Below are positions 7,209 to 45,265 of a DNA stretch of 64,000 bases, piece by piece. This DNA comes from Nitrospira lenta (GTDB lineage Bacteria > Nitrospirota > Nitrospiria > Nitrospirales > Nitrospiraceae), in contig NZ_OUNR01000020.1 in assembly GCF_900403705.1 (NCBI RefSeq), positions 62,001 to 126,000 of the forward strand, in the 5' to 3' direction. How positions within the stretch are numbered: position 1 is the stretch's first letter; each line of letters begins with the position of its first letter. A program made the position numbers and the translations under genes. The notes under the pieces are model-generated. The model did not search any database and was not told the DNA's origin. It saw only the letters and a list, made by a program, of their open reading frames with translations.

Positions 7209-7409
7209 GTTCATTAATGGCCGAAACGCGTGCGGCGAGCGCAGGATCCAGGGCGTCCACGCGCCTCATTAAATCTGGAGAACGGCCTATCAATGCGAGG
7301 TTAGAAAAATCGTCCGGTCGGCATGAGCCTTGCTGATCCGGCGCTACGGAGATCCCGCGTACAGAGTGACCGGCTGACCATACCCTGAACAACGAGGGCG
7401 CAGAAATCC

Positions 7410-8801
7410 ATGCGGAACATTATTATTAGCCTCTGTATCATTGGGCTCTTTCTTGAACTATCAGGCCTGATCTGGTCGGCGAAAAAGGACAAGCCTAGCG
7501 AGACATTTGTCAGACTCTCAACTCCACCGGCCCGCAATATCGAACGCCCGCTCGACAACGGCTATTTTCTGTTGCTGGGGATGGCCGCTGCGGGTGGAAC
7601 GAACCCCGTCCAAACCGGATACGACATCTGGAGTGAAACCGGGGCACGACCGACAGAACGCGGCTATGACTTAGACAAACCAGGACGGACAGAGCTTCGA
7701 CTGCCGGTGGCCTACGACCGTGTCGTTCCCGAATGGCATGCCCACGACCCGTTGTCGGAATTCCAGAACAACGAGGCTTCGTTTCGGTTGTCGGCTTCGC
7801 TCTATGCGCCACTCGTCACACGATACGAACAATTTCTCCGTATGCAGTTTGAGGATTGGGGATACGGACATACCGGCGCGCCCCGCATTGAAGAGCTTAT
7901 GGCGGCCCACCGCCTGTTTGTGGCAATCGGATTCGGCGAACAGGTACGGACCGGGCTCGATCGACTCACCCTGGACGTTGCCAAGTGGCGTAGCGTCCTG
8001 CGGGAAGCCCGAACCCTCCCGGTGAAGATACTAGCGTCAGTGATGATCGAAGACGATGTCGAACTGTTGTCGCGCATGCTGAGTCAAAGCACGGTCGACA
8101 AACGCGTGCTGGTTCAAGGGCTCAATTTGCTCCAGCCATTGACTCTAGCTGAATACTCACTCCGTTGGCCGATTCAAAATGAATTTATGATGGGCTATCA
8201 ACGAAGCCGTACGGAATCGGCAAATGGAACCCGGCTTTCTCAGGCCGACCCTCACATCCTGGAAACGGTCACGATCCTGGCCCATCTGCCGTCCGATGCA
8301 TTCCAAAAAGTGGCGCACCCCAAAAGCCTGACGGGATTTGGCCTGGCCGCATCCGGCCAGCGCACCTGGGACGCGTATTCGAGCTATTACGACGCCACCA
8401 TTAAGGCCGCTGAAACGAATCACAGCCCGCTTCCTCGCCTGCAATATATCGCGAGACAGTCGCCCCGAACCTTTCTCGAACGGCTGGCCGATCCGATGGA
8501 ATTCGAACCGCAATGGGAGCCCTTCAGTCAACACTTGGTTGAAACAGATGCGCGGCTGCGCCTGGTCTCACTGCAAATCCTGATGCGCAAGCCCACCGCC
8601 ACCGTCACCATTCCGACCAGACTGGCGGAAGTCGGCTCGATGTACTTCGACCCCTTCACCGGACTCCCCATGCTGTGGAGCCCAACACAAAAGAAACTCT
8701 ATAGTGTGGGGAAAGACCGGCTCGACGATGGGGGAGATCCAAGTTTCGATATCAGCGTGCCGCTTCCGCCTGCCTTCACAGCGCCGTCACCGGCCTCGTA
8801 G
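7410..8801 (+). CDS. Exported or membrane-anchored protein of unknown function
   Basis: 463 aa, family not recognised. Residues 4-22 form one hydrophobic helix (signal anchor or uncleaved signal); no lipobox is present. The body is mostly helical and polar, with a long middle region of repeated Leu/Arg helices. The C-terminus has a short motif, DPFTGLPMLW, then LYSVGKDRLDDGGDPSFDI. That DPF-G-PL...YSVG...DDGG pattern recurs at the C-termini of many otherwise unrelated exported proteins, as I recall, notably in Planctomycetes. It is the only plus-strand gene among the minus-strand B12 genes and converges on the SemiSWEET gene 9 bp away. The start ATG has only a weak GAGG ahead of it. Confidence 0.75.
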   Translation: MRNIIISLCIIGLFLELSGLIWSAKKDKPSETFVRLSTPPARNIERPLDNGYFLLLGMAAAGGTNPVQTGYDIWSETGARPTERGYDLDKPGRTELRLPVAYDRVVPEWHAHDPLSEFQNNEASFRLSASLYAPLVTRYEQFLRMQFEDWGYGHTGAPRIEELMAAHRLFVAIGFGEQVRTGLDRLTLDVAKWRSVLREARTLPVKILASVMIEDDVELLSRMLSQSTVDKRVLVQGLNLLQPLTLAEYSLRWPIQNEFMMGYQRSRTESANGTRLSQADPHILETVTILAHLPSDAFQKVAHPKSLTGFGLAASGQRTWDAYSSYYDATIKAAETNHSPLPRLQYIARQSPRTFLERLADPMEFEPQWEPFSQHLVETDARLRLVSLQILMRKPTATVTIPTRLAEVGSMYFDPFTGLPMLWSPTQKKLYSVGKDRLDDGGDPSFDISVPLPPAFTAPSPAS

Positions 8802-15564: not shown

Positions 15565-16596
15565 CTACGATGCGAACTGCTTGGCCAGTTCACTCGGCTT
15601 GAAGACGCCCCGTTCGGTGATGATGCCGGTGATCAGTTCAGCCGGGGTCACGTCGAAGGCTGGATTGTAGACAGCGACGCCAGCCGGCGCGATCGGGTGG
15701 CTGCCATGGATGGTGGTGACTTCTAACGAGTTGCGTTGCTCGATGGGAATGTCCGCGCCGGTCTTGGTCTTCAAATCGATGGTTGAATACGGCGCCGCGA
15801 CATAGAACGGAATGCCGTGCGCCTTGGCGAGCACCGCCACGGAGTACGTACCGATCTTGTTCGCCACATCGCCATTGGCCGCGATCCGATCGGCGCCGAC
15901 GACACAGAGCTGGATTTTCCCCTGGCGCATGAGTGATCCGGCCATATTGTCGGTGATGAGCGTCACCGGAATCTTGTCCTGCATCAGCTCCCAGGCCGTA
16001 AGCCGGGCTCCTTGCAAGACCGGGCGCGTCTCATCCGCAATGACCTGAATTTTCTTCCCCTGCTCCCAAGCTGCGCGAATCACACCGAGAGCCGTCCCAT
16101 ATCCCGCCGTCGCCAGCGCACCGGCGTTGCAATGCGTCAGTACGGTCTGCCCATTGGCGATCAACTCCGCGCCATGCTTCCCCATCGCCTTGCACAACGC
16201 GATGTCCTCATCCAGGATCGCTTGCGCCTCGGCCAGCAGCGCGGCCTTCACAGCGGGAACCGCCTGCGCGCTCAAGGAAGCAAGTTTCTTTTTCATGCGA
16301 TCGATCGCCCAGAACAGATTGACGGCCGTCGGCCTGGTGACGGCCAAATGATCGCAGATCGGCATCAGCGCCTGCGCAAACGCGGGAAACTCCGTCGCTG
16401 AGACCGCCTGCGCACCCAGCGCCACACCCAACGCGGCCGTCACCCCGATCGCAGGGGCTCCACGGACTTTCAATTCACGAATGGCATCGGCCACCGCCCG
16501 ATAGTCCCGGCAGTCGAGAAACTCGACATGCTCGGGCAGCCGGCTCTGATCGAGCAGACGCACAACACCGTTTTTCCATTCAACTGTAGGAATCAT
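15565..16596 (-). CDS. mtnA: S-methyl-5-thioribose-1-phosphate isomerase
   Basis: 343 aa of the eIF2B-alpha-like MtnA family. The catalytic Cys is in [19 protein letters not shown] and the Asp in [32 protein letters not shown] is near residue 45-58. It converts methylthioribose-1-phosphate to the ribulose form in the methionine salvage pathway. It is the last gene of the long minus-strand run from the polysaccharide locus, 40 bp after the WecA-like gene, but its function is unrelated. Confidence 0.94.
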
Positions 16597-38289: not shown

Positions 38290-40428
38290 TCACCGATATT
38301 CGTAACGGTACAGCCCATATTCAGGAGTCACTTCCGACTTCACATTGGTGAGCACCACGCCCATGATGTTCGCCTGGGCATGATCCAGCAGAAACTTGGC
38401 GCGCTTCAGCGCATTGCGTCCGATTCTCCCGACTTGATAGACCAGGATCGTCCCGTCGACCCGCGAACTGAAAGCCACGGCATCGGTCACCGGCAGAATC
38501 GGCGGCGTGTCGAATAACACCATGTCGTAGTCCTGCTGCATTTCATCGACCAGCACCTTAATCTTATTCAGGTTCAGGAACTCATTCGGGTTGCCCGATT
38601 CAGACCCGCTCGTCAGGACATGCAGATTATCCAGCCCCGGCGTATTCATCATCCGATCCGCTCCGATCGGCCCCAACATCAGATCCGATGCCGACCGTAC
38701 GTAAGACCGCCACGATGTCGTGCCGATCAGGGCATCGACCAATCCCGGCTCACGATCCAGGCCCAACCGCTGGTGCACAATGGGCTTTCGGAGATCGGCA
38801 TCGACCAGCAGCACCCGCTGCCCTTCCTGCGCCATGGTAATCGCCAGATTGATGACCGACGTGCTCTTCCCTTCACCAAGCCCGGCGCTGGTAAAGATAA
38901 TCGACTTCACCTTTCGATCCATGCTGGCAAATTGAATATTCGTGCGCAACGACCGGAGACTCTCCGACAGCACCGACTTCGGATCGACCAGGCAAATCAA
39001 CCGCGACAAACTCTCCACGGTTGCAGGCGGCGTCGAAGCCGGCAGCGCGGCCTTGGCCTGCTCCACCAATTCACGATGGTCGAACTGCGGAATAATTCCC
39101 AGAACAGGCACCTTGAGGAATTCCTCCACCCCTTCGATCGTGCCGATCGAGGTATCGAACGATTCACGGGCAAACGCCAGCACCACTCCCATGAATAGTC
39201 CCATCAGCGAACTGACCATGATGTTCAACAGCATGTTGGAGGCGTTGACCGCCGCCATGGGCGCGATGGCCGGAGCGATGATGGTCACTTCCTCAATCTG
39301 CCCCGCGCTCTTAATCAACAGTTCCTGATGTTTGACTTTCAGCGATTCAAGAAGATCGGCGTTGACCTTCACATCACGCTCCAGCCGGCTCATCTGAATG
39401 GCGGCTTTCGGGAACGCCATGTACCGCTCCCGATACACGTGAATCTGCTGGTCCAGGGCAAGCGCTCGCTCATTCAGAGTTTTTTGCTTTGAGCGTAACT
39501 CCCGCACCATTTCGGCCTTCAGGCCCGCAATCTTCTGCGAAATCTCCTTCACCACCGGATGGCTCTCTGTATAGTTGATCAACAGAGCTGTTCGTTCCTG
39601 CCCAAGGTCCAAGAGCCGCTGATTGAGTGCCGTCAGTTGAGCGTACTGCTCTTCGGTAAAGATACGGATATTGTCCTGCTCCAGCGTACCGTCATGCCGG
39701 CTCAGGACAGCGATCTGCCTTTCAGCCTCGCCTCGATTGCGCAACACGGCGTTGTGCTGTTCCTCCAGCTTGGTAAAGGTCTCGAGCGCAGCCTTGGCTT
39801 CATCGGTGAGAAAGACTTGCCCTTCCTGTTCCTTGAAGTTTCGCAGTGCTTCCTCGGCCCCGGCCAGTTGCCCCTCCAGTTCCCGAAGCTGGTCCTCAAC
39901 AAAGCGTCGAGACTCTGTGACCAACCGATTCCTTGCCGCGATATTCTCTTGGCGATAGGACTCCGCAACGTGATTGGCCATCTGTTCAGCCATCCGCGCC
40001 TCACTCGCCGTGGCGGTAATCCTGATGATGTTCGTTTCGCCTTCCCGCTGCGTCTTAATTTGCTGGCCAAAGTTATAAATCAGATTCAAGTGTTCGGCCG
40101 ACCGCTTCTGCTCCGGCGTCAGATCGGATGGCACCACCCCCAACTGCGTCGCCACCCGCTCCATGACAGGAAAGCTCCGGATAAACTCCGATTGGGTAAT
40201 CAGATCGTTGGCATTGGAGAAGGACATCGAATCCAGCAACTGCTGCACGACCGTTGTGGACCGGTCAAATTTCACTCGCGCCGACGCTTCATAGACAGGC
40301 GGCGGTTGCAACAGCTGAGAAAAGATCACCGTAAACCCCACGACCAGCGCGGCTGCAAGCATGATGAGATACTTGCGTTTCTTAATGATCAGCCAATAGT
40401 CGATGACATTCAGCTCATATTGTGCCAT
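38290..40428 (-). CDS. Wzc-like polysaccharide co-polymerase with BY-kinase domain
   Basis: 712 aa. N-terminal Wzz domain with the first membrane helix at about residues 19-38 (LIMLAAALVVGFTVIFSQL) and a long periplasmic coiled-coil region (about 130-390). The second membrane helix is at about 405-425 (ASNMLLNIMVSSLMGLFMG). A cytoplasmic BY-kinase follows: IIFTSAGLGEGKSTSVINLA (Walker A), VLLVDADLRKP (Walker A'), DMVLFDTPPILPVTDAVAF (Walker B). The short tail EYGLYRYEYR carries three Tyr, a reduced form of the usual Tyr cluster for autophosphorylation. It sets chain length and couples to the Wza-like exporter 18 bp upstream. No Wzb phosphatase is seen in the window. Confidence 0.93.
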   Translation of the reverse strand: MAQYELNVIDYWLIIKKRKYLIMLAAALVVGFTVIFSQLLQPPPVYEASARVKFDRSTTVVQQLLDSMSFSNANDLITQSEFIRSFPVMERVATQLGVVPSDLTPEQKRSAEHLNLIYNFGQQIKTQREGETNIIRITATASEARMAEQMANHVAESYRQENIAARNRLVTESRRFVEDQLRELEGQLAGAEEALRNFKEQEGQVFLTDEAKAALETFTKLEEQHNAVLRNRGEAERQIAVLSRHDGTLEQDNIRIFTEEQYAQLTALNQRLLDLGQERTALLINYTESHPVVKEISQKIAGLKAEMVRELRSKQKTLNERALALDQQIHVYRERYMAFPKAAIQMSRLERDVKVNADLLESLKVKHQELLIKSAGQIEEVTIIAPAIAPMAAVNASNMLLNIMVSSLMGLFMGVVLAFARESFDTSIGTIEGVEEFLKVPVLGIIPQFDHRELVEQAKAALPASTPPATVESLSRLICLVDPKSVLSESLRSLRTNIQFASMDRKVKSIIFTSAGLGEGKSTSVINLAITMAQEGQRVLLVDADLRKPIVHQRLGLDREPGLVDALIGTTSWRSYVRSASDLMLGPIGADRMMNTPGLDNLHVLTSGSESGNPNEFLNLNKIKVLVDEMQQDYDMVLFDTPPILPVTDAVAFSSRVDGTILVYQVGRIGRNALKRAKFLLDHAQANIMGVVLTNVKSEVTPEYGLYRYEYR

Positions 40429-40446: not shown

Positions 40447-41244
40447 CTATCGTATCGTGGCTGTGGGGAAGAACGCTGGAATCAAGAACGCCGGATAGAA
40501 CGGGGCAATCGCCATCTGCACGATCGGCATAATCTTCTTGGCAGCCTCCGTGGTATCGCCCAAGTGTTCCCGTGGAACGAAGATCACATCGTTTTCTTCC
40601 AGAGCGATGTTTCGCGACAAATCACCATAGGTAAAGGTTCTGGCCAAGTCGGCCGTTACGATGTAGGGACGATCCAGCGATCCGCGCACAATACGGATTT
40701 CTTCCAGCAACGCCGTTTCGTTATAGTTCTCCACGGCGGCCAAAGCCTGCAGCACCGTCATGTTTCTCGGCATCGGCACCGCTCCCGGCTTCCGAACATC
40801 TCCAAACACAAATATCCGTTTGATTTTGAGCGATTTCTTTCTGAGCACGACTTGGACTCTGGGATTCCGCATATACGGAATGACTTGTTCTTGAATTCGT
40901 CCCTCGGCTTGCTGGGCGGTCAACCCGGTCACCATGACTTCCAAGAAAGACGCGCCAATGACTCCATTCTCCCGAACAACACTCGTGAACTTTTCTTCCC
41001 CTGCCCCGCGGCGAATCACGATGTCGAGCGTGTCCCCAGGTTCAATCGGCGTCTCCGCCGTCGGCACGGCCTCATCCGCGTAGACATCGCCCTTCGGCAT
41101 CGGAGGCAACGGCTGCGTCACCGGGCTAATGGCCGAAGGCGGCAGAGAAGATTGTCCGGGATTTCGGCAACCCGGCAATATCTGAAGTCCTACCGCAAGA
41201 GCGAGAAGACTCCATCCAACCGATCGATGTATACGAATACTCAT
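40447..41244 (-). CDS. Wza-like outer-membrane polysaccharide export lipoprotein
   Basis: 265 aa. Lipoprotein signal (residues about 12-26) ends in LPGC. A Poly_export domain follows (IEPGDTLDIVIRRGAGEEKFTSVV, DGxIG equivalent ENGVIGASF, QAEGRIQEQVIPYMRNPRVQVVL quoted in part), then a SLBB domain (RIFVFGDVRKPGAVPMPRNMTVLQAL) and IALEENDVIFVPRE. It is shorter than enteric Wza (about 380 aa), with one SLBB copy and no clear C-terminal amphipathic pore helix, as in many EPS-type exporters. A strong GGAGGAG precedes the ATG. Confidence 0.91.
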   Translation of the reverse strand: MSIRIHRSVGWSLLALAVGLQILPGCRNPGQSSLPPSAISPVTQPLPPMPKGDVYADEAVPTAETPIEPGDTLDIVIRRGAGEEKFTSVVRENGVIGASFLEVMVTGLTAQQAEGRIQEQVIPYMRNPRVQVVLRKKSLKIKRIFVFGDVRKPGAVPMPRNMTVLQALAAVENYNETALLEEIRIVRGSLDRPYIVTADLARTFTYGDLSRNIALEENDVIFVPREHLGDTTEAAKKIMPIVQMAIAPFYPAFLIPAFFPTATIR

Positions 41245-41262
41245 GGCTCCTCCTGATTCCTT

Positions 41263-42264
41263 CTACGCGGCCCGCGTGTCGGGTAAGACTTCAACGATAT
41301 GCAGAGATGTTTCACGACAGAGATCCACTGCCGCGGCTTCCCCATCCGTCTGCCCTTCACGGTGACTCTGAACAAGCAAGACGGGCCTGAGGGGATAGCG
41401 AGCATTCACTTTCGACACGACCCCGATATGCCCGTCATTCAATCGTACCGATGTCCCGACCGGATACAGCGAGAGCTGATCCACCAGCGTTTTGATAAGC
41501 CGAGGCTGGAAGGCCTGCTTGTACTGGACCAGGAGCGAACGCAGCGCCTGATGCGGAACAACTCGCGCGTGATAGGGCCGCGGACTGATCATGGCATCGA
41601 GCACATCGGCCAGTCCGATGATTTGTGCACCTTCGGCAATCTCTCCCCCCTTCAGCCGACAGGGGTACCCACTGCCATCCCATCGCTCATGCTCCTGGGC
41701 GATCGCGGTTGCCAGCCAGTCGAACGACTCGCCCATCTCAGCCACCACACGCCGACCTTGTTCAGGATGCGCATGGATGCCGGACCACTCATCCGCACTC
41801 AACGAACCGGACTTTTCAACGATCCCGTGAGGTACCAGCCACATGCCCAGATCGTGCAGTAGGCCTGCTAGAGCCAGACGTTCCAACGCCGCCGAGTCGT
41901 AGTTGAGCCCCTGGCCGATCTTCACGCTGAGAATCGCGACATGCATCGAATTTGCGACCTGATCGCCCTCACCCTCTCCACGCATCATACGTATCAGCAG
42001 GTCATCGCTCGTCGCGAGCGCTGTGACGAGCCCTTCGGCCAATCGGGAGCACCGCTCGAATCTCACTTCACGGTTCGCACGAACAGCCTCCCCTATCACC
42101 ATCAGTTCCTTGCGCGCGAGCCCATACCAATCGATACGAGCATCTCCCCCTTTGAGGGTTGGCTCGTTTTCCCCTACTAGCGGGATTGAAAGGGACGCGT
42201 GTCGACCACTCCCCCCCTCGCGAGGGTCTGGGACTTGATCGCGTACTAACTCTGAGAGTCGCAT
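41263..42264 (-). CDS. HD-GYP domain protein (c-di-GMP phosphodiesterase type)
   Basis: 333 aa, soluble, no receiver domain. The metal-binding HD is in LAGLLHDLGMWLVPHGIVEK, the following His in HAHPEQG, the His in QEHERWDGSGYP, and the GYP motif is intact. The N-terminal 90 residues and the last 60 (SLYPVGTSVRLNDGHIGVVSKVN) are typical accessory parts. Family members hydrolyse c-di-GMP to pGpG/GMP. Placed between the RHH regulator (28 bp) and the Wza gene (18 bp), it probably tunes the second messenger that commonly controls exopolysaccharide export. Confidence 0.9.
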   Translation of the reverse strand: MRLSELVRDQVPDPREGGSGRHASLSIPLVGENEPTLKGGDARIDWYGLARKELMVIGEAVRANREVRFERCSRLAEGLVTALATSDDLLIRMMRGEGEGDQVANSMHVAILSVKIGQGLNYDSAALERLALAGLLHDLGMWLVPHGIVEKSGSLSADEWSGIHAHPEQGRRVVAEMGESFDWLATAIAQEHERWDGSGYPCRLKGGEIAEGAQIIGLADVLDAMISPRPYHARVVPHQALRSLLVQYKQAFQPRLIKTLVDQLSLYPVGTSVRLNDGHIGVVSKVNARYPLRPVLLVQSHREGQTDGEAAAVDLCRETSLHIVEVLPDTRAA

Positions 42265-42292
42265 GCTCGACGTTCCTCGTAAGCGTGACAGG

Positions 42293-42475
42293 CTAGGACG
42301 ATTTCCCTGGTGTCCGCCGACTATTGGCCACTAACTTTAGTTCAGGCTTTTTCAACTCGCGTTCCAACATCGCTCGAATAAAGCCACTGGTCGTATAGCC
42401 TTGCGATTTCAAGGCATCCAGCTGTTCCTTCAATTCAAGCGGCAGTTGAATAACTATCCGTACAAGATTAGCCAT
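42293..42475 (-). CDS. Ribbon-helix-helix (CopG/Arc-type) transcriptional regulator
   Basis: 60 aa from ATG 42475 with GGAG nine bases upstream; a longer frame to 42526 is not needed. The start VRIVIQLPLELKEQLDAL is an RHH beta strand plus first helix; GYTTSGFIRAMLERELKKPEL is the second helix. Such proteins dimerise and insert a two-stranded sheet into the DNA major groove, usually at inverted or repeated short sites. Several such repeats lie directly upstream. It is the first gene of the run leading into HD-GYP, Wza and Wzc. Confidence 0.82.
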   Translation of the reverse strand: MANLVRIVIQLPLELKEQLDALKSQGYTTSGFIRAMLERELKKPELKLVANSRRTPGKSS

Positions 42476-42526
42476 GGTGGTCGTACTCCTCAGGTCATAG
42501 ATTCCCAGAGCACGGAATGTGTGCAC

Positions 42527-42554
42527 ATGCTATGCCTTGCTAGCATTGTGACAA
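42527..42554 (-). promoter_or_regulatory. Candidate promoter for the RHH-HD-GYP-polysaccharide run
   Basis: Minus strand: TTGTCA (42549-42554), 16-bp spacer, TAGCAT (42527-42532). The -35 box is part of the ATTGT-G-ACAAT palindrome. Modest match; the alternative is that the promoter is further upstream. Confidence 0.35.
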
Positions 42555-42647
42555 TAGTGAGGAAACTCGCGGACTTATGATGGTACACCCCAGCATTGTG
42601 GACAAGAATGGACATAAACAACCATTCGTACACCATCAATGTACGAA
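42542..42647. promoter_or_regulatory. Cluster of palindromes and direct repeats upstream of the RHH gene
   Basis: Within the 232-bp gap 42476-42707 there are: a perfect palindrome ATTGT-G-ACAAT (42545-42555); AGCATTGTG twice, at 42542-42550 and 42592-42600 (exactly 50 bp apart, on one face of the helix); GTACACC at 42583-42589 and 42628-42634; and a perfect 7-bp inverted repeat TTCGTAC-N9-GTACGAA (42625-42631, 42641-42647). These are plausible operator sites for the small regulator or another factor. The sites are seen; binding is inference. Confidence 0.5.
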
Positions 42648-42707
42648 ATTGGCTAAGACCGAATCGATGTTGAGGGATGTGACTGCGTAGGGTGAATTTC
42701 TTATTGA

Positions 42708-45239
42708 TTAGAATTCATGCGCCAGCACCCACACTCGATGCCAATTGCGCAACTCACACGTCCAGAGACACTCTTGCAATCGCACTGGTTGCAACACCAT
42801 ATCGCGCATTCTTCGTACCTGGATATCAGGTGTCGAGAGCCGGCCTGTCACGATGATCCCCCCATCCCGATCTGTTCTAGCGACCTCACTCCCGATGGCC
42901 GAATAGGCATCAATCACGTCGGGAGCAGGATGCCCGTAAGAATTATGCCGACCGACCGAGAACACCGCGTAGCGAGGTCGAACCAATCCAATCCAGTGAC
43001 GCTCCAACGAACTCCGCGCTCCGTGGTGAGGAACTTTGAGCACCGTCACCGGCTCTTGTCCCATGGCTGCCAGACGGTGGAGTCCGTCCACCTCGATATC
43101 AGCCGCGAACAAAATACTCTGAGGGCCACAGGTCAGCTGCACGACGACGGATTCATTGTTGAGGAATGTTCCGCTCACACTCTGGCTGGAGCCCCCACGA
43201 TCCTGCGCTCTGATTGGATTAAGAACCGTGAGCCTGCAAAACGCTCCCCGAACAATTTCCTCCCCGCGTGTGGCGACATGGCTGTGTACCTGTTGCTCCG
43301 CCACGGCCTCCTGCAATTCTTTAAACAGTGGTTCGGATCGCTCGATGCCCGTATGCCAGAACTCTCCGACTTCCAGGTGGCGAATCAGCCAGGGAAGCCC
43401 GCCGACATGATCCTGTTGCGGATGCGTGGCAATGATATGGTCCAGCCGGCGAATCCCCTGGTTCAGAAGAAACGGCCCAATGACACCGCGCCCCATATCG
43501 AACCGCTCGTACCTTCTTCCACCATCGATCAACACCGTTGTTCCATCGGGGAATTGAAGGAGCGCACTATCGCCCTGTCCAACATCAAGAAAAGTAACTC
43601 GCCAGCGATCACCGTCTGCGATTGGAATACCAGATAGAATCCATCCTCCCAACGCCGTCGTAACCAACACCGCCCCAATGGCCCGGTGATATCGAAATCT
43701 TAGCGCGCCAGCCACCAGGAACACCCCTAGATAAAACGACGCCATACTCCAAAGAGGAGGGGCAGGCACACGCCAGTCGCTTCCCGGAAACGCCGCGCAC
43801 CAGTGCAGGGCAGTCACCATCCACTCCAGCAGATGCTCTTGAATACGTGCAAGCGGAAGGCCTCCGTCACTATTCATAAGCGTCATAAATGCGGAGAGTA
43901 GCCCGAGAGGAACCAGGATCATTCCCGTAAAGGGAACGGCGAACAGGTTGGTTACCAGGCCAAGCCATGGCACTTGATTGAAATACCAAGCCACCAGCGG
44001 AGTCGTCACCAGCGTCACCGCTGCTCCTAGAATAACCGCCTCTCGAAGATGACGGCCCCAGACGCCCCACTTTGTGTCGGCTTGACCATCAGACGTATCT
44101 TGGCAAGACAGAGAACCCACGACCCAGATGATGGCCAGCACTGAGAAAAACGATAGTTGAAACGAAATATCTCTGATCGCCCGTGGATCGTGCAGAAGAA
44201 TCAGGAGGGCCGCTCCAGCCAAGGCGTGCAAAAGATGACGCTCTGAGCCGATCCAAATAGTGGCCAGCGCCACGCAAATCATAATCCAAGCCCGCATGGT
44301 GGCAAGTTCAGCCCCGGCCAGGAGTGCGTAGAACGTCACCACCAGCCAGGTGCAGAGGATGGCCACGCGAGTCGGTGTCACGTGCCTCGACAATCCCAAA
44401 AGCATCACGGATGGCAGCGCGGAAAGTCCTCGACGGACCGCCCCAAACACCACCACTGCGATCAGTCCCAAATGCGACCCAGAAATTGAAAGCAGATGGA
44501 TGGTTCCCGTCGTCATGAACCATTCTTGCAGATCCTCCTGGACGTACCCTCGCTCTCCGATCACGATCCCTAGAAAAAGACCGCGGGCCGGCTGGGCTAA
44601 CGAGTGGATCGCATTCTCTCGAATGACGCCTCGCCAACGATCGATCCGCCCCCAACTCCTCCACCACCAGTCCGGCTCACTTACAAGCGGAAGCAGGTGA
44701 ACGGCTTCAGACCCCGTGACGGTCCCCACGGCCTCGATGCCTTGTCGCTCGACATAGGACGCATAGTCGAACCCTCTGGGGTTGAGAGATCCCGTCGGAA
44801 CACGCACACTCGCTCGAAACACAATCTGATCACCTGCCCATACGGCATCGCCGGGGTCCCGCCATGTCAGCTTAATTCTTCGCGTGAGCGTCCCTTCTTC
44901 AGAGCTTGGGACACACTCAACCACCATCGTCAGACGAGATGGTGCATGCTGAACGAGGCCGACAACTCGCCCCCGATACTCCACACTAGATCCTGAGGAG
45001 AGGTCTTCCCCGACATGGCTGGAGATCGGCGGTGTTACCCCTGTCCAATAGATCACTCCCAGACAAAGAGTCGCACACCACAGGCAACTTTTCGGCTGCT
45101 CGATGCCTCCGATTCGTTCACCAGCCGAAAGGATCAATATGAATACAAGTAAAATGGAGAGCAAACCGACGGGAAAGAACGGAAGGAATGAACCGGCCAC
45201 AAGCCCGGTGAGAAAGGCGACACAAAGGGATGGCAGCAT
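42708..45239 (-). CDS. comEC: ComEC/Rec2-type DNA internalisation protein
   Basis: 843 aa from ATG 45239 (AGGGA ahead of it); a TTG at 45254 is a weaker option. Hydrophobic N-terminal helices, a DUF4131/OB-like region (about 80-210), the Competence domain (GLFLGIVIGERGYVQEDLQEWF, GTIHLLSISGSHLGLI) with many helices to about 540, then a metallo-beta-lactamase-like domain: VTFLDVGQGDSALLQFPDG, HIIATHPQQDHVGGLPWL, LKVPHHGARSS, AVFSVGRHNSYGHP. The HxxxDH site is kept as H-P-Q-Q-D-H. It forms the inner-membrane channel and a candidate nuclease for DNA uptake. It follows glmM by 26 bp. Confidence 0.93.
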   Translation of the reverse strand: MLPSLCVAFLTGLVAGSFLPFFPVGLLSILLVFILILSAGERIGGIEQPKSCLWCATLCLGVIYWTGVTPPISSHVGEDLSSGSSVEYRGRVVGLVQHAPSRLTMVVECVPSSEEGTLTRRIKLTWRDPGDAVWAGDQIVFRASVRVPTGSLNPRGFDYASYVERQGIEAVGTVTGSEAVHLLPLVSEPDWWWRSWGRIDRWRGVIRENAIHSLAQPARGLFLGIVIGERGYVQEDLQEWFMTTGTIHLLSISGSHLGLIAVVVFGAVRRGLSALPSVMLLGLSRHVTPTRVAILCTWLVVTFYALLAGAELATMRAWIMICVALATIWIGSERHLLHALAGAALLILLHDPRAIRDISFQLSFFSVLAIIWVVGSLSCQDTSDGQADTKWGVWGRHLREAVILGAAVTLVTTPLVAWYFNQVPWLGLVTNLFAVPFTGMILVPLGLLSAFMTLMNSDGGLPLARIQEHLLEWMVTALHWCAAFPGSDWRVPAPPLWSMASFYLGVFLVAGALRFRYHRAIGAVLVTTALGGWILSGIPIADGDRWRVTFLDVGQGDSALLQFPDGTTVLIDGGRRYERFDMGRGVIGPFLLNQGIRRLDHIIATHPQQDHVGGLPWLIRHLEVGEFWHTGIERSEPLFKELQEAVAEQQVHSHVATRGEEIVRGAFCRLTVLNPIRAQDRGGSSQSVSGTFLNNESVVVQLTCGPQSILFAADIEVDGLHRLAAMGQEPVTVLKVPHHGARSSLERHWIGLVRPRYAVFSVGRHNSYGHPAPDVIDAYSAIGSEVARTDRDGGIIVTGRLSTPDIQVRRMRDMVLQPVRLQECLWTCELRNWHRVWVLAHEF

Positions 45240-45265
45240 GAGCCTTCCCTGCAAAGGAACAGCTA

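Follow-up and report, generated by a model that had tools for sequence, protein, structure and literature searches.

A short RHH gene and a conserved upstream element at the head of the Nitrospira exopolysaccharide locus

Results

Genes and features of the locus

The window, by which we mean the whole 64,000-nucleotide stretch of Nitrospira lenta DNA analyzed here, belongs to a 3.76-Mb genome of 22 contigs. The gene order is comEC, the RHH gene, a block of approximately 26 kb (HD-GYP, Wza, Wzc and so on to WecA), and mtnA. The WecA-like gene (16637) is the far end of the exopolysaccharide (EPS) block, which starts at the HD-GYP gene (42264). The features to which we refer are the following.

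42708–45254, minus strand: comEC, the neighbor upstream of the RHH gene
42640–42644, minus strand: GTACA block, half of the TTCGTAC palindrome named in the initial annotation
42577–42596, minus strand: site II, ATGCT-N10-ATCAT, an incomplete copy lying 50 bp upstream of site I
42549–42554, minus strand: proposed −35 box, TTGTCA; its TT tracks the presence of EPS genes
42522–42546, minus strand: site I, ATGCTAGCAAGGCAYAGCATGTGCA (= ATGCTAGCAAGGCATAGCATGTGCA), the proposed operator; the rival assignment is a sigma-54 −24/−12 promoter
42527–42532, minus strand: proposed −10 box, TAGCAT, inside site I; its fifth base, A, tracks EPS
42293–42475, minus strand: RHH gene (60 aa), a putative VRIVIQLP strand followed by two helices; head of the locus
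41263–42264, minus strand: HD-GYP-family gene with altered catalytic motifs, HDLGM and QEHERWDGSGYP
40447–41244, minus strand: Wza-like gene, from profile matches
38290–40428, minus strand: Wzc-like gene, from profile matches
16637–41244, minus strand: EPS genes (Wza- and Wzc-like, Wzy_C, flippase, glycosyl- and methyltransferases, XrtA-type amidotransferase, WecA-like)
15565–16596, minus strand: mtnA-like gene (IF-2B family), the downstream border of the EPS genes

The initial annotation placed the RHH gene at the head of the EPS locus, with the HD-GYP, Wza, and Wzc genes behind it. We find the HD-GYP, Wza-like, and Wzc-like genes after RHH on the same strand, and the leading position of RHH holds across the genus. 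Profiles recognize a Poly_export/SLBB protein and a Wzc-like kinase, which makes this a Wza/Wzc-type EPS export locus. No transcription-factor domain was detected among the EPS products scanned. We infer that the EPS genes are co-transcribed from the RHH promoter.

The RHH protein

The RHH protein scores below the curated cut-offs of the families nearest to it: 19.5 bits for Pfam RHH_5 (cut-off 26), 15.2 bits for RHH_1 (20.5), and 26.8 bits for the NCBIfam YlcI/YnfO family (30). The monomer model (pLDDT 71.5) has helices at residues 13–24 and 29–41; residues 5–12 (VRIVIQLP), which lie ahead of the helices, are without a strand in this model of the monomer. Sequence-profile and fold searches of the PDB with the protein returned nothing significant.

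A search of 98 genomes with the RHH protein gave a match at E ≤0.01 in 49, of which 31 were at ≤1e-16. comEC is upstream in 29 of 30 RHH loci (the remaining one is a contig end), and an HD-GYP gene is downstream in 23; one of the other seven is a contig end. A later scan of genomes titled Nitrospira, Nitrospiraceae, Nitrospirae or Nitrospirota yielded 48 loci, comprising 22 new ones, 25 repeats of known loci, and one paralogue (L184). Locus L003, which is without upstream DNA, and L047 were left out of the set of upstream regions. We rejected a toxin–antitoxin pair; in the loci read, the gene after RHH is HD-GYP or mtnA, and no small toxin-like ORF is present.

Repeats upstream of the RHH gene

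The initial annotation described palindromes and a repeated word in front of the RHH gene, and every one of them is found in the window at or beside its reported place. ATTGTGACAAT at 42545–42555 is the only place in the 64 kb where ATTGTNACAAT matches (0.06 expected; one match reached in 6 of 100 shuffles). AGCATTGTG occurs twice, at 42542–42550 and 42592–42600; with 0.70 expected and two copies reached in 19 of 100 shuffles, the pair is weak as a bare 9-mer. TTCGTAC-N9-GTACGAA at 42625–42647 is the sole exact match within the window. The claimed overlap of the first palindrome with a −35 box is real, the hexamers being TTGTCA-N16-TAGCAT with 9 of 12 bases agreeing with the consensus. Two promoter-like sites were found in the RHH upstream region, where 0.9 are expected.

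Lack of conservation upstream of orthologues had been offered as the refutation of this proposal. We ran that test, and the repeats in their literal form are conserved in at most 3 of 60 loci: ATTGTNACAAT is exact in three orthologous upstream regions (L001, L002, and L007), two copies of CACAATGCT occur in three, and TTCGTAC-N9-GTACGAA is exact in one, which is the window itself. The palindromes were rejected as operators on these counts (1–3 of 60). The more general part of the proposal, a cis element before RHH with a copy 50 bp away, survives in another form. The AGCATTGTG pair turned out to be the left arms of two related ATGCT-N10-AGCAT sites, and this element is conserved.

A conserved element, site I

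Site I was spotted by aligning 38 upstream regions, in which one block outlasts its flanks. The 23-base core of ATGCTAGCAAGGCAYAGCATGTGCA, allowing up to three mismatches, was found exactly once in each of 36 genomes, out of 79 of the genus; the reversed control gave 0. Each of the 36 occurrences falls at the RHH locus, as shown by strong RHH matches for 28 (one split over two contigs) and by individual checks for eight. The element was not found in genus genomes without RHH, and it is carried by every one of the 32 genus genomes whose HD-GYP is of the RHH-adjacent type (30 with a good match, two with a partial one). Three genomes (G014, G021, and G042) carry RHH but miss the threshold; their left half is altered, and they differ from the 25-mer at 6 to 8 positions.

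In the intergenic alignment of 30 EPS-bearing loci, site I is the best 25-column window, at 1.88 bits per column where the windows average 1.09 (sd 0.32). Such a peak amid diverged flanks speaks against the absence of any regulation, that is, against sites conserved only through ancestry or as the terminator of comEC, beside an incidental gene order. The stretch 42625–42647 does form a weak terminator-like stem after comEC. However, just one of 60 loci has the stem in exact form, and conservation falls on another part; we consider an absence of regulation the least probable of the readings weighed here.

With up to one mismatch, ATGCT-N10-AGCAT occurs in the 64 kb at just 42527–42546 (0 mismatches) and 42577–42596 (1 mismatch), where 1.86 matches are expected. 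The full inverted repeat was at first favored as the operator and later lost ground, as the left arm is degraded at some copies of site I; it is lost in some loci that have no EPS genes (L013 and L021). The RHH strand, VRIV-I/V-QLP, is identical in EPS-bearing and EPS-less loci, and the full inverted repeat is thus not what RHH requires. Three short stretches are each kept in 57 of 57 loci (46 EPS-bearing and 11 EPS-less): GGCA (42533–42536), AGC (42529–42531), and TGCA (42522–42525).

An RNA element was also considered and rejected. Rfam gave no match within 41000–43500, and pairing of the inverted repeat, at 84.7 percent of cells, does not exceed the 83.1 percent in shuffles; one pair was changed on both sides.

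Sigma-54 as the main rival

Site I can alternatively be read as a sigma-54 (RpoN) promoter, with GGCAY at −24 and TGTGCA at −12. The consensus of this factor consists of TGGCAYR and TTGCW boxes at GG-N10-GC spacing, and any base is accepted between the two boxes. RHH and the EPS genes would then need an enhancer-binding protein, perhaps at the GTACA block, and RHH would be a modulator or a passenger. In the GTACA block G, A, C, and A are identical in all 46 EPS-bearing loci, and the block is mostly kept without EPS too; it is possibly an activator site.

GGCAYR-N5-TGCW at GG-N10-GC spacing is found in 57 of 57 loci (46 EPS-bearing and 11 EPS-less). An rpoN domain is present in 54 of the 57 genomes searched, including that of the window, and the window's genome has at least 23 NtrC-type activator matches among the first 32 of 91 candidates scored. 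The strict sigma-54 pattern gave 78 matches in 19 genomes, and its reverse gave 39. A precedent also exists. According to Haft 2006 (PMC1569441), sigma-54 sites with an upstream motif stand before PEP-CTERM genes in Proteobacteria; the GG-N10-GC core, a conserved upstream block, and the link to EPS are shared with our locus, in which XrtA-type EPS genes are present.

However, the genes in that system are other ones, and the core at our locus departs from the consensus at two positions, with A at −26 and G at −15 in place of T in every locus. The AGC that separates the boxes never varies. No PrsR match rises above the cut-off in the window's genome, and G014, which carries RHH, has no rpoN match (this genome is 87% complete). 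A looser pattern, GGCAYRNNNNNTGCW, gave 2 matches in the window with 1.41 expected. A sigma-54 promoter would also leave site II and the bases linked to EPS (see below) unexplained. We regard it as the main rival, and an unlikely one.

One further sigma-54-like site, GGCATGAGCCTTGCT at 7320–7334 on the plus strand, lies approximately 75 bp before an ORF of 463 aa (7410–8801); such a site is at about chance level for the window. The ORF has no Pfam match at 1e-5.

A second copy, site II

The pattern ATGCT-N6-GCAYAGCA has 44 matches in 79 genomes. Thirty of these fall on site I, five on site II with a spacing of exactly 50 bp, and nine elsewhere. The last number compares with eight in the reversed control, and at this stringency no wider regulon is seen in the 79 genomes.

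CAYAGCAT at −50, matched at 7 or more of its 8 bases, is present in 9 of the 30 loci of the first set. Among the 22 added loci, which had no part in finding the motif, it is present in 15 of 16 that bear EPS genes versus one of the remaining six. With at least 6 of 8 bases, the counts are 29 of 46 EPS-bearing versus 1 of 11 EPS-less loci (p 0.002). The window's own site II has 5 of 8 bases in the right arm and a better match in the left arm. The left arm is found at 0 of the 16 added EPS-bearing loci versus 20 of 30 in the first set, and its absence there further weakens the case for the full inverted repeat as operator. Judged from these counts, site II is real but uneven.

Loss of the EPS genes and what decays with it

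Of 60 RHH loci, 46 have the EPS genes and 11, from five lineages, have mtnA instead; the other three were set aside from this comparison. In the EPS-less loci mtnA is next after RHH. Several lineages (L062–L067 and L120–L134) lack the entire EPS block (16637–42264) that otherwise separates RHH from mtnA. Remnants are found in some of the gaps (WecA in L063 and L122, HD-GYP in L065 and L067), so the absence of EPS is at least partly a loss. Where a genome lacks a strong RHH orthologue, comEC has mtnA as its immediate next gene in 13 of 15 loci, and in the other two the contig ends or is cut. No site I element is left in these 15 loci (at least 5 mismatches of 15).

We rejected relocation of the EPS genes, as Wza was not found in any of the 6 RHH-only or 15 RHH-less genomes tested and was found in all 3 controls; for five RHH-only loci added later, the absence of EPS was judged by neighborhood alone. 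On a comEC tree of 51 loci, the RHH-only state needs three changes and the RHH-less state four. A tree of 73 loci, with several long branches and one row only 18 percent filled, gives five changes for the RHH-only state. On this comparison of gene content, the EPS locus is a removable block.

The claim that some bases of site I and the promoter region decay where the EPS genes are missing holds for the 46 and 11 loci. The TT of the proposed −35 box is present in 43 of 46 EPS-bearing versus 0 of 11 EPS-less loci (Fisher p 2e-9, with kinship ignored). All 46 EPS-bearing loci have A as the fifth base of the proposed −10 box (A5), compared with 4 of the 11 EPS-less ones (p 1e-6). When kinship is taken into account on the comEC tree, five independent pairs are left, of which on average 4.5 have TT following EPS and none the reverse (sign test p 0.0625); A5 follows EPS in 2.3 of 5, and site II, with one base of slack, in 2.8 of 5 with 0.2 the opposite way; the contrast in TT and A5 was noticed post hoc, and five lineages are unable to reach p 0.05. 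Both boxes are weak. Sigma-70-type hexamers 16–18 bp apart score lower in the relatives than the 9 of 12 in the window, and the EPS-bearing loci among the 22 added ones have TTCATC or CTCATC as their fixed −35.

The pattern of decay suggests one promoter for RHH and the EPS genes, with RHH as the switch. In the simplest account, the bases that track the regulator would be the operator, and those that track EPS would make a promoter strong enough for the EPS genes.

A regulator encoded elsewhere could also bind sites I and II and control EPS, with RHH a conserved neighbor that has other targets. This would agree with the retention of RHH, its strand unchanged, in five EPS-less lineages while site II and A5 decay. 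However, the element is not found in genus genomes without RHH; GGCA, AGC, and TGCA are kept wherever RHH occurs; and the site is carried by this locus only. Autoregulation is moreover common among short RHH proteins, RelB being an example. We rank a regulator encoded elsewhere behind sigma-54 and think it rather unlikely.

Proposed mechanism

The account that we prefer, and hold tentatively, is that RHH represses its own sigma-70-type promoter, which would also drive the EPS genes. The 60-aa RHH protein would regulate its own gene locally, and a single promoter, TTGTCA-N16-TAGCAT, would serve both that gene and the EPS genes that follow. The operator would be GGCA-Y-AGC-N4-TGCA (site I), which lies over the spacer, the −10 box, and the region of the start site, so that RHH bound there would block transcription. 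Site II, 50 bp upstream, may strengthen the repression by cooperative binding or looping. From the sequence comparison, we infer RHH as the binding protein, repression as its effect, the promoter class, and the role of site II.

The HD-GYP protein and c-di-GMP

The HD-GYP protein matches the HD-domain profile PF13487 with 102.8 bits (cut-off 27.2). In a motif-level comparison of 30 orthologues, the lysine of HDxGK is replaced by methionine and the first histidine of HHE by glutamate in all 30. The motifs read HDxGM (HELGM in one orthologue) and QEHE in place of HHE. In the homologue PmGH, alanine at K225 or H276 abolished activity, according to PMC4159591, and by motif we equate these two residues with those replaced here. 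Given these replacements, the HD-GYP protein is expected to be without phosphodiesterase activity; it may bind c-di-GMP without catalysis.

The initial annotation suggested a c-di-GMP-linked switch for the locus. In such a switch, RHH or HD-GYP would sense c-di-GMP and gate the EPS promoter, with HD-GYP as a non-catalytic receptor or with RHH binding the nucleotide like CdbA of Myxococcus. HD-GYP comes after RHH in EPS-bearing loci, and the GYP motif is kept in 30 of 30 orthologues. In Myxococcus xanthus the small RHH protein CdbA uses its RHH domain to bind c-di-GMP (PMC7156744), and our RHH protein resembles it in size and in a possible c-di-GMP context. However, CdbA is a chromosome-wide nucleoid protein, which sets it apart from the Nitrospira RHH, and its authors saw no binding of c-di-GMP to AmrZ and do not regard such binding as a general RHH trait. 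The replacement in 30 of 30 orthologues of two residues needed for catalysis in PmGH counts against a switch acting through HD-GYP, and we consider c-di-GMP gating very improbable.

In the most far-reaching reading, the whole Nitrospira EPS locus would be gated by an RHH switch with one target, whose twin half-sites are spaced by 50 bp, one of them in the promoter core. A non-catalytic HD-GYP from the same operon would sense c-di-GMP or another ligand for this switch and release or reinforce RHH. We regard this combination as improbable.

Discussion

Short RHH autoregulators and the control of EPS by an RHH protein (AmrZ) are already known. Nitrospira are key nitrite oxidizers that live in flocs and biofilms. 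Our searches of the open-access literature found no paper on RHH control of Nitrospira EPS genes, nor on a one-locus RHH leader of a Nitrospira EPS operon.

AmrZ of Pseudomonas, which acts on exopolysaccharide and c-di-GMP genes, likewise ties an RHH-type protein to exopolysaccharide control. It is described as a global regulator conserved in pseudomonads; here there is one site per genome at one locus, and no larger relative was seen. A similar architecture is that of short autoregulating RHH repressors such as CopG, and RelB in toxin–antitoxin operons: a small RHH protein with conserved sites over its own promoter and, as we read it here, the first gene of the operon. Unlike these, the Nitrospira RHH heads approximately 26 kb of EPS genes and not a toxin or replication gene, and it reaches no Pfam or NCBIfam cut-off.

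If the repressor reading is true, it would offer a means of acting on matrix production in Nitrospira through one site at one locus. The repeated absence of EPS beside a retained RHH sorts the bases of the regulator from those of the operon, and gives each base a testable role.

Some minor observations concern the surroundings. In the upstream regions of orthologues, the GTACA block sits approximately 120 bp before site I. A paralogous HD-GYP, 40–44 percent identical, occurs in most genus genomes (for example G000:C20:39643–40491), often in a longer open frame. In locus L049 (G109), HD-GYP matches as two overlapping pieces in different frames, which suggests a frame break or an assembly error.

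More distant RHH genes elsewhere in the order (L098–L117) look like mobile-element autoregulators. We rejected these proteins as guides to the motif; they are of a different type, and the best of their 20 upstream regions has 4 mismatches to the 15-base core. Upstream of one of them, from the same genus (L107), the words GCTAGCA and GCATGTGC occur, both of which are part of site I; this may be chance. Some of the distant genes have palindromes near the −10, and TTGACA promoters are frequent among them, with an exact TTGACA within 130 nt in 10 of the 20 upstream regions.
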